DNA from: Salinivirgaceae bacterium
Lineage (GTDB): Bacteria > Bacteroidota > Bacteroidia > Bacteroidales > Salinivirgaceae
Reading direction: 5' to 3'
Assembly (NCBI GenBank): GCA_002869335.1
Contig: PKTE01000359.1
Coordinates: 1 to 42,004, forward strand
DNA length: 42,004 nt
The translations under genes were made by a program, and so were the position numbers. The notes below the pieces were generated by a model. That model was given only the letters and a program-made list of their open reading frames with translations. It ran no database searches and had not been told where the DNA came from. Positions 7,294 through 40,241 of this stretch are shown one piece after another (position 1 is the first letter of the stretch; the number at the start of each line of letters is the position of its first letter).

Positions 7294-10200
7294 ATGAAGT
7301 ATTTAGCAGTCATTTTACTGAGTTTTCTTACTATAAACATTACGGCGCAAAACAAAGTCGAATATTCAATTTCAAATGATTGGTATACCAATAAAAATAT
7401 CAATAAGCCTCTTTTTAAAGATGTGTATTTTTTTGATTAAACACCCAATATTCCTTATCATATTATCACAATCGATATTCCAGATAATGCTGAAGTAAAA
7501 AATATCGAATTCAAAAGTACAGAATTTAAATCCTGGAGTAGATTCAATAGTATTATTAATGAAAATCTAAAAAACGAAATTGAGATTATTAATAAGACAA
7601 GCATCACTAAAAAACAAAAACAAGTAGAAATATGGGTTTCATGTGCCATTAATCAAAATGGGAACTATGCCGTATTAGAGAAAGCAGATATTACAGTTAA
7701 TTTGGAATCATCAAGAAACAGTCAAAAAATATCGAGAGATTACCCAGCAAACTCAATTTTATCAACAGGTGAGTGGAAAAAAATAAGCGTTGTAGAAAGT
7801 GGCGTTTATAAAATAACCTACAATCAAATTTCTAATTGGGGACTTGATAATCCTGAAAATATTAGAATTTATGGTTTTGGAGGCAAACAATTATCATTCA
7901 GAGTAAACTCAGATGATCCTTACGAACTACCAGAAGTGCCTATATGGATAAATACAGGAAGTGATGGAATTTTCAACAGTGGAGATTATTTGCTTTTTTA
8001 TGGACAAGGCATTGAAAACAGATATACAATAGATAATGAAACAATCATGGTTAAAGAGCATGATTACACATTAAAAGGACACTATTTCATAACCACATCT
8101 CATGGACCTTCGAGTCAAATAAATACTGTAGATTACAACTCACAATCATCATCAATTACTGTTAATCAATATACAGATGTACAACTGGTAAACTATAGGG
8201 ATAATAATTTAAATCATACAGGAAGAATATTCTTTGGAGAACCTCTCCAACCTGCAGACAGACAAACAATTGAGTTTGATTTCCCCAACCTAGTTTCATC
8301 AGAAAATGTAAAACTAAATGCTCAGGTTGGTGCAATTAGTTCGGGAGTTAATTCCTATATGCGCTATTATCTAAATGATAACTACATCAGTCAGGTTTCA
8401 ATTTTTAAAAGCACCAGTTACTTTAAAGGTCGCGGAGCAACATTTACAACAAACTTAACTGTTCCCGAAGATCAATTTGATTTTACATTTGAATACTCAT
8501 CAACAAATGTTACTGCTCAGGGATATATTGGATATGTTCAGGCTATGGCTAAAAGGCAAATGAAATATATTGGCGAACAACAAATAATGCAGGATCTTGA
8601 CCATATTAATACTTCAGAAATTATTAATTACGAAATTTCTGACTTGCCGGAAAATGCCTTGATTTGGAACATCTCAAACCCTGGAAACCCAGAAAACATT
8701 GCTAAAATGAGCATTAATAGCAGCACAATCAGTTTTAAAAAACCTGCAGATGATGAAAATATGTTCATTGCATTTGAAGAAGATGATGCTTTATCACCTA
8801 GCCTTGAAGGAAGTATTGATAATCAAGATTTATACAATATTGGTTTTTATGATTTTATAATCCTAACTCATCCTGACTTTAAGTCCTATGCTGAAGAGCT
8901 TGCAGAATACCACAGGACAAATGACAACCTATCAGTGCTAGTAATAGACCCACAACCCATTTACAATGAATTTTCGAGTGGTAATCAAGATGTTTCAGCC
9001 ATTAGAAACTTTCTAAAAACACTTTACGATAAAGCAACGAATGAAGAGGAACGACCAAAACACTTACTTTTATTTGGTGACGGCTCTTATGATAATATTT
9101 CAACTACAGATAATACTAACTTTATCCCTACTTTCCAAACAAACAGAATAGATTCCTACTTATCGGTAGCATGTGATGATTTTTTCGTTATGCTTGATGA
9201 AGGAGAAGGTGGTGATGAATTTGATTACTCTTTAAATGGTAAACTTGACATGGGTGTGGGCCGGTTTCCAGTAAACACTGGCAGGCAAGCTGAAATTATT
9301 TTGGAAAAGACATTGGATTATATGCAAAATCCAAATCTTGGACCTTGGAAAAACAATTTAGTATTTGTAGGCGATGACGCTGACAAAACCGATTACTATT
9401 TGCAAGAGGATGCCTATGAGCTTGCAGATATTATTATGACTAATTACAGGTGGATGAATCCAAAACTAATTCTTTTAGATGCTTACCCACAAGAATCTAC
9501 GCCTGCCGGTGAAAGATATCCAGAAGTAACAAAAGCAATAAACGGGCATATCCATAATGGAACTTTAATTTTTAATTATACTGGACATGGAAGTGAAGAA
9601 AGATTGGCGCACGAAGCAATATTGGACAAAAACACCGTTAAAGGTTGGAGCAATGATAAACTACCATTTTTCATGACTGGTTCTTGTGAAGTTAGCCGTT
9701 ACGATAATAAAAACCTCCAATCATTAGGTGAAGCCATTCTGCTAAAAGAAAACGGAGGAGCAATTACTCTTTTTTCAACTACCAGGGTTGTATTTGGGGG
9801 CTCTAACCAAACATTAAGCCGGAACTTTTACAATAACATATTTAAACCCAACGAAGATGGCTCTTATAAAACTTTAGGAGAAGTGATTCAAATCACAAAA
9901 AACAAAACATCAGGTGATAATATGCGAAATTTCACACTATTTGGGAATCCAGCTTTAAGACTAGATATACCACCATTCAGGGTCGTAACCGATTCAATAA
10001 ATGGCAACATGGCTATCAATGAACCTGATACAGTTATTACTGATACTTTAAAAGCATTAAAAAAGATAACTATACACGGACATATTGTTGATTCTTCAAA
10101 TAGCAGACAAAACTTCAATGGAACTATTTATCCGATTGTTTATGATAAAATGAAGAATAAAACCACATTAAATAATGATGATAACAGTAATGGTCCTTTT

Positions 10201-11070
10201 ACATACAGTGAATACAGCAACATTATTTATAAAGGTAAAGCAACCATTGAAAATGGAAAATTCCGTTTTGATTTTATAGTACCTATTGATATTGATTACG
10301 AATTTGGAACAGGTAAAATATCTTTTTATGCCGAAAATAATGAAACGGATGCTTACGGACATTTCGATAATTTTATCGTTGGTGGCTCAGACACAACAAA
10401 CGTATCAGACAATAGCGGTCCGGAAATGTCCCTCTTTATGAACGATACAACTTTTATAAACGGAGGAACAGTTGATGAATCTCCAATGCTTATTGCCAAA
10501 TTATTTGACGATTATGGTGTAAATACTACAGGAAATGTAATAGGCCATGACCTTACAGCAACCTTAAATGGCGATATTCTTAATAAAATTGTATTAAATG
10601 ATTTCTACGAAAATGATCTAAATAGCTATCAATCAGGTAAAATTGAATATCAATTAATAAATCTGGAAGAAGGCACACATACACTTGAAGTAAAAGCCTG
10701 GGATATTTTAAATAATTCCTCAACAGAACTCATCGAGTTTATTGTGGCAAATTCAGAAGATGTGGTTTTATCACATGTACTTAACTATCCTAATCCTTTT
10801 ACAACAAAAACAAGTTTTATTTTTGAACACAATCAACCAAATGAAATCATAGATGTTAGAGTACAAGTATTCACTGTTTCAGGTAAGTTGATAAAAACAA
10901 TGGAAACTACCATAAGTGGAACACAATATATGAATAATCCTATCGTTTGGGATGGAAGGGATGACTTTGGTGATCCTATTGGAAGAGGAGTTTATATATA
11001 TAAGGTGAGATTATCCACATCGGATGGAAAAAGTGGAGAAAAATTTGAAAAGCTTGTAATATTACGATAA
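7294..11070 (+). pseudogene. porU: T9SS C25-family sortase PorU, interrupted by in-frame TAA at codon 49
   Basis: The frame opens at ATG 7294 with a signal peptide (MKYLAVILLSFLTINITAQ), meets TAA at 7438-7440, and continues in the same frame to 11070; full length would be 1258 codons. Downstream sequence is clearly PorU: an N-terminal beta domain (WKKISVVESGVYKITY), then the gingipain-like C25 peptidase domain with YTGHGSEER (His765) and MTGSCEVSRYD (Cys798), and a C-terminal T9SS-type domain from about residue 1165 (NYPNPF, WDGRDD, GRGVYIYKV). PorU cleaves the sorting domain from T9SS cargo at the cell surface and attaches the cargo to A-LPS. It works with PorV, encoded next. No ATG lies between the stop and 7702 in this frame; a TTG at 7702 would lose the signal peptide, so restart cannot give an exported protein. 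Nonsense mutation, sequence error or readthrough are all possible. Confidence 0.85.
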
Positions 11071-26471: not shown

Positions 26472-27605
26472 TCAGCTAAAATATTGACGACTAAATTTAA
26501 CAACCTTCTCTATTCCCTTGGCAATTTCATTTTTAGGCCTTGCAATATTAAAACGCAAATAATCATTAGCCCTATCACTAAAGTGCATTCCCGGAATAAC
26601 TGCTACAGACTCATCTTCGTATAAATTCATTGCAAACTGGAAACCATCAATTTTATCGGGAAGCTTTGCCCACACATAATAACCACCATAAGCTTTGGGC
26701 ACTTCATATCCTAAATTTACCAGTTCATTTGACATTTGTTCATATGAAGACTTAAGTAGCTTGCGAGTTCGTTCGACATACATTTTTCCGAAAGACTCAC
26801 TTTTTAGATATCTGGAAAGAGCCTCCTGCAAAGGCGCATTGACACAAAGACCAATATAATCATGTATGTCTCTCAAAACCTCAGCGTGCTTTTTGTGACA
26901 AAACAAATAACCTATTCGCCAACCTGTAATGGACAACATTTTACTGAAACTATTAACATAAAAAACATTGACACTAAGCTCTTTTTCAGGCAAATAAATG
27001 GGTTCTTCATACCATAATTCACGATAAACAGCATCAATAATGAGGTAGGCATCATTGCGCTCACAAACTTCACGCAAATCATTCATTTGCTGCTCTGAAA
27101 AGACATATACAAAGGGGTTACCTGGGGAATTAATAAAAATTACGCGAATCTTATTATTTTGAATATATTGTTCAAGCTCCTCCTTTTCAAAATCCAATTT
27201 CTCATACGCATAAAAAGGAAGTTTAAATATACGGGGTAAATGTTTATAGCTTTCATAAACCGGATCAAAGGCCATCACAGCAAAGTCATCATGAATCACA
27301 TAACGGAGATATTGCATTACAAGCGATAATGCTTCAGTAGCTCCCTGAGTTACGAGAAGTTGACTTTCATCGTAGTTTAAATGACTATAATGCGTCAAAA
27401 TTTCCTGTCTTAAGCTTAAATTACCTATTCCCGGAGCATATTGATGGACATTTTCAGAAGCAACCTCAGCCACATATTGAAGCAACTACCCTGGAGGATC
27501 AATACCCGGAATACCCTGGGCAAAGTTTATACCTCCAAATTGTTTCACTTTATTACTCATAAAGCTTATTAAAGAACCTTGAGGAACTTGAAATTGCTTA
27601 ACCAT
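26472..27605 (-). pseudogene. PLP-dependent class I/II aminotransferase interrupted by in-frame TAG at codon 40
   Basis: ATG 27605 starts MVKQFQVPQGSLISFMSNKV, continues INFAQGIPGIDPPG, and meets TAG at 27486-27488. The same frame resumes LLQYVAEVASENVHQYAPG and runs to 26472; full length would be 377 codons. Fold-type I motifs are clear: the YAPGIGNLSLRQ region, NSPGNPFVYVFS, the PLP lysine Lys222 in NSFSKMLSITGWRIGY, and the C-terminal LRFNIARPKNE with the carboxylate-binding Arg. The downstream piece begins with TTG right after the stop, but a product from there would lack the N-terminal arm that closes the active site. It is the last gene of an operon with a MurU-like gene 4 nt upstream. 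Substrate is not deducible; methionine/kynurenine-type aminotransferases are the nearest in appearance. Confidence 0.82.
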
Positions 27606-39926: not shown

Positions 39927-40241
39927 ATGAAAAAAGCAAACAAACTATACCGATTTTATCAAAAATACCTGGCTAACAAATTCGTGTTAGCCTCTTTGGT
40001 ATTTATTGTTTGGATGCTTTTCCTAGATACGAACAACCTGATTCAAAGAGTTAAAACAATAAGTCATATCAATAAACTCCAAGAACAAAAAGCTTATTAC
40101 GAAGAAAGAATAGAAGAAGACAAATAAAAACTTATCGAATTACGATCAGACAAAAATAAATTGGAAAAATTTGCTCGTGAGCAATATCTAATGAAAAAAG
40201 AAAATGAAGATATCTTCGTTATACTAATTGACGAAGATTAA
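39927..40241 (+). pseudogene. DivIC/FtsB-like septum formation initiator, interrupted by in-frame TAA at codon 67
   Basis: ATG 39927 starts a short basic cytoplasmic tail, then a membrane segment (FVLASLVFIVWMLFL), then a coiled coil (IQRVKTISHINKLQEQKAYY). TAA lies at 40125-40127. The same frame continues KLIELRSDKNKLEKFAREQY, LMKKENEDIFVILIDED and ends at TAA 40239-40241; full length is 104 codons. The FAREQYLMKKENEDIFVI block is the conserved end of Bacteroidota DivIC/FtsB, which joins FtsQ and FtsL in the divisome and is normally important for division. The 66-residue piece alone would lack this end. The true end overlaps the convergent glycosyltransferase gene by 23 nt. Lys or Gln at the stop position would fit related proteins. 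Confidence 0.82.

Follow-up and report, generated by a model that had tools for sequence, protein, structure and literature searches.

A premature stop codon in porU of a Salinivirgaceae draft genome belongs to a genome-wide set of single-codon interruptions and is probably an assembly error

Introduction

PorU is described as the sortase of the T9SS. In P. gingivalis, the porU deletion mutant is classed among the T9SS secretion mutants, which accumulate A-LPS in the periplasm (PMC8545088), and loss of PorU is therefore expected to be costly where cargo matters. A second published phenomenon concerns sequencing rather than secretion: oxidation of guanine in DNA that is outside the cell produces spurious G>T changes (PMC12390751).

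Here we analyse a porU frame in a window of 42,004 nucleotides (the whole stretch of DNA studied), which is contig C249 of the metagenome-derived draft genome G000 (364 contigs totalling 4.32 Mb; completeness 85%, contamination 3.45%). Two congeners, G001 and G002 (one contig), were used for comparison. Like the described sortase, the G000 frame, when read on through its stop, spans the whole PorU profile, with a signal peptide, a C25 body and a C-terminal domain, and has porV directly downstream; it differs in that the assembled copy bears one in-frame TAA at codon 49.

Results

The porU frame and its interruption

The features at this end of the window are as follows.

7294..7437, + strand: codons 1-48 of porU, including the N-terminal signal peptide; aligns with the PorU starts of G001 and G002
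7438..7440, + strand: in-frame TAA in porU (codon 49); relatives have T, S, N or V here
7441..11070, + strand: remainder of porU with the C25 body and the C-terminal domain, 1209 open codons; NF033707 1181.6 bits, PF01364 335 bits
11112..12299, + strand: porV, intact; NF033710 464.5 bits

The frame opens at ATG 7294 with a signal-peptide-like start (MKYLAVILLSFLTINITAQ), meets TAA at 7438-7440 after 48 codons, and is then open for 1209 codons up to the stop at 11068-11070. Past the TAA, it matches NF033707 (NCBIfam PorU) over profile positions 2-1095 of 1095 with 1181.6 bits, against a curated cut-off of 420 bits, and Peptidase_C25 (PF01364) over the full profile length with 335 bits. By profile and C25 domain the read-on frame is thus a member of the PorU family, and its sortase activity on T9SS cargo is predicted. 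The split noticed by the first-pass annotation is confirmed as genuinely present in the assembled sequence: the continuous frame from signal peptide to C-terminus seen in close relatives is absent in G000, and the stop is isolated in an otherwise healthy gene, the long body of which has no second stop.

In-frame start codons 3' of the TAA are TTG 7702, GTG 7936, TTG 7990 and ATG 8047, followed by later ones, and none of these four is followed by a signal-peptide-like stretch. The earlier view that a restart at TTG 7702 would lack export is borne out; its companion statement, that no ATG precedes the body, holds in that there is none before 8047, with the added precision that ATG does occur from 8047 on, well inside the body.

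porU in relatives

G001 and G002 have one full-length porU match each, and no stop was found within the matched part of porU in any of the 37 genomes having a match. A second porU, which the first-pass annotation had raised as a possibility for an intact copy, was not found in the G000 assembly, an 85% complete draft. The alignment of codon 49 with close relatives, also proposed there, shows an uninterrupted frame at a variable column occupied by T, S, N or V. The codons of the relatives (ACT, AGT, AAC and GTT) are all more than one step from TAA, so codon 49 is not itself demonstrated as a G-to-T or C-to-A change, and the relatives do not reveal which residue it originally encoded.

The numbers of unique amino-acid changes in PorU are 137 in G000, 115 in G002 and 158 in G001, and those in PorV are 35 in G000 and 31 and 36 in the congeners. 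Because the body is intact and the rate equals that of the congeners, there is no sign of older decay of porU. Judged from these comparisons, the stop, if real, is very recent.

The T9SS set of G000

The T9SS of G000 does not look decayed overall, as the first-pass annotation had held. In addition to the intact porV, the set looks otherwise complete: the window also has a gldJ-like gene, porQ and porZ lie outside it, sprA is present as two pieces at contig ends, and there are 125 CTD cargo matches. sprA bears an in-frame TAA in both draft genomes but at differing places (L105:2614 in G000 and L046:2479 in G001), and the G001 stop aligns with Glu. Nothing here supports a loss of the T9SS.

In-frame stops across the genome

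Stops lying within coding frames were sought in 626 kb of G000 (the window included), 371 kb of G001 and 1.2 Mb of G002. Under the same criterion, G000 shows 17 in-frame stops (27 per Mb), whereas G001 shows 2 (5.4 per Mb) and G002 shows 13 (10.8 per Mb), those of G002 being partly repeats and gene ends. The excess in G000 over the two congeners has P = 0.012 and P = 0.016, and the strict criterion undercounts, as it misses the stops of porU and divIC themselves. In a homology scan that takes one coding ORF per place and leaves gene ends, repeats and tandem genes out of the clean count, there are, on our reading of the list, about 8 clean stop sites for G000 over 81,381 aligned codons, against 1 for G001 and none for G002; the frameshifts number 1, 1 and 0, respectively.

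Two other genes of the window carry lesions of the porU type.

27486..27488, - strand: in-frame TAG in an aminotransferase gene (26472-27605); frame open in the congeners, with Ala
40125..40127, + strand: in-frame TAA in a divIC/ftsB-like gene (39927-40241); frame open in the congeners, with Ala or Glu

Outside the window, the sole fabD copy of G000 (L066:5098, contig C300) has an in-frame TAA where the congeners have Ala or Glu; fabD is single-copy in each congener, and G000 has the interrupted copy only. Further stops lie in DNA polymerase I (polA), an ECF sigma factor, an M3 peptidase and an outer-membrane beta-barrel protein, and in genes that we named by reading their sequences as methylmalonyl-CoA mutase, a prenyltransferase, a CitE-like lyase and an RND-type transporter. 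A search of the window for Rfam families gave no match.

The porU stop is one of this genome-wide class of single-codon interruptions, and for that reason it is hardly informative about the biology of PorU or the T9SS. The interpretation in the first-pass annotation stands for the split and its T9SS context, but it missed the genome-wide stops, among them those in fabD, sprA and the two other genes of the window.

Kind of base change

The lost residues were read from the congener genes, as alignments to solved structures fixed them poorly. Among the 11 sites of G000 with a readable residue, 8 have Glu or Gly in a congener, whereas Glu and Gly together are expected in 20% of the one-step paths to a stop given the codon usage (P about 2.5×10−4). 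Two of the eight, fabD and divIC, have Ala in the other congener, and the lost residue is ambiguous at the remaining three, porU (Thr/Ser), sprA (Lys/Met) and the aminotransferase (Ala). The prevalence of Glu and Gly points to G-to-T changes. Among amino-acid differences, the same bias was not seen (132 vs. 129), in a comparison in which divergence would hide so low an error rate.

The published artefact of guanine oxidation outside the cell (PMC12390751) resembles this pattern in that the residues lost in G000 are mostly Glu or Gly, whose codons a G>T change can turn into a stop; it is, however, known from deep read data, and the G000 case would be recognized from the assembled consensus alone. 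The near absence of frameshifts in G000 would fit short-read data.

Discussion

We consider it probable that the TAA in porU is a single-base substitution error in the draft metagenome assembly. Such errors would be scattered as in-frame stops over unrelated genes of G000, porU among them, and their apparent bias toward G-to-T (or C-to-A) could have arisen from oxidized guanine in the DNA that was sequenced. Both the erroneous nature of these bases, as opposed to real mutation, and the chemical cause are what we infer from the excess and the bias. The living organism would then most likely encode an unbroken PorU, and reading the stop as a lesion of the T9SS is not needed.

The main rival, a genuine and recent nonsense mutation in the strain, either fixed or at an intermediate frequency in the population, appears unlikely, although it deserves more weight than any other alternative. 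In that case PorU would stay unexported and T9SS cargo could no longer be anchored. Both the sequence taken at face value and the undamaged PorU body agree with such a mutation, the latter being expected for a very recent change. However, such stops also lie in the sole fabD, polA, divIC and others, and a living lineage could hardly carry all of them together; the grouping of the P. gingivalis porU deletion with secretion mutants (PMC8545088) argues in the same direction. If the organism were a real mutator lineage accumulating G:C to T:A nonsense changes over the whole genome, the lost residues would be biased to Glu and Gly as observed. Repair genes give it some backing, since no match to mutM (TIGR00577) is present in G000, G001 or G002, and a second MutY-family match in G000, an Nth-like one (C201:48716-49327, - strand), has an in-frame TGA; but mutY itself is intact in G000, mutM is equally missing from the congeners, the PorU and PorV branches of G000 are not long, and the single fabD is interrupted. 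Taken together, we regard a mutator as improbable.

Decoding of the stops as amino acids, through readthrough, a suppressor tRNA or a changed code, would let PorU be made whole, and it would be in keeping with the location of the stops in otherwise sound genes and with the alignment of the TAA and TAG sites mostly with Glu and of the TGA sites with Gly. Yet TAA, TAG and TGA are all involved and all terminate ordinary genes, the interruptions are rare, a single G-to-T bias accounts for both residues, and the anticodons are normal among the tRNAs, which were found in about 14% of the G000 genome; this explanation is very improbable. Least probable of all is that PorU functions in two parts or is translated from a later start codon: TTG 7702, ATG 8047 and other such starts are all that could serve this reading, a signal peptide is absent 3' of the stop, and no relative is split at that place. 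The broader proposition that the organism has many real nonsense codons in core genes, those of porU and fabD among them, and tolerates them by readthrough or by being a G:C to T:A mutator, is likewise improbable.

An assembly error in porU, the reading that we prefer, implies that single stops in the G000 draft offer no safe basis for calling gene loss and that nonsense calls need read support. If the stops are real, one has to ask how the cell can live with nonsense codons in core genes such as fabD. Our search of the literature on premature stops in draft metagenome genomes found nothing. Some of the other stops in G000, mainly those in surface-protein genes, may be true pseudogenes.
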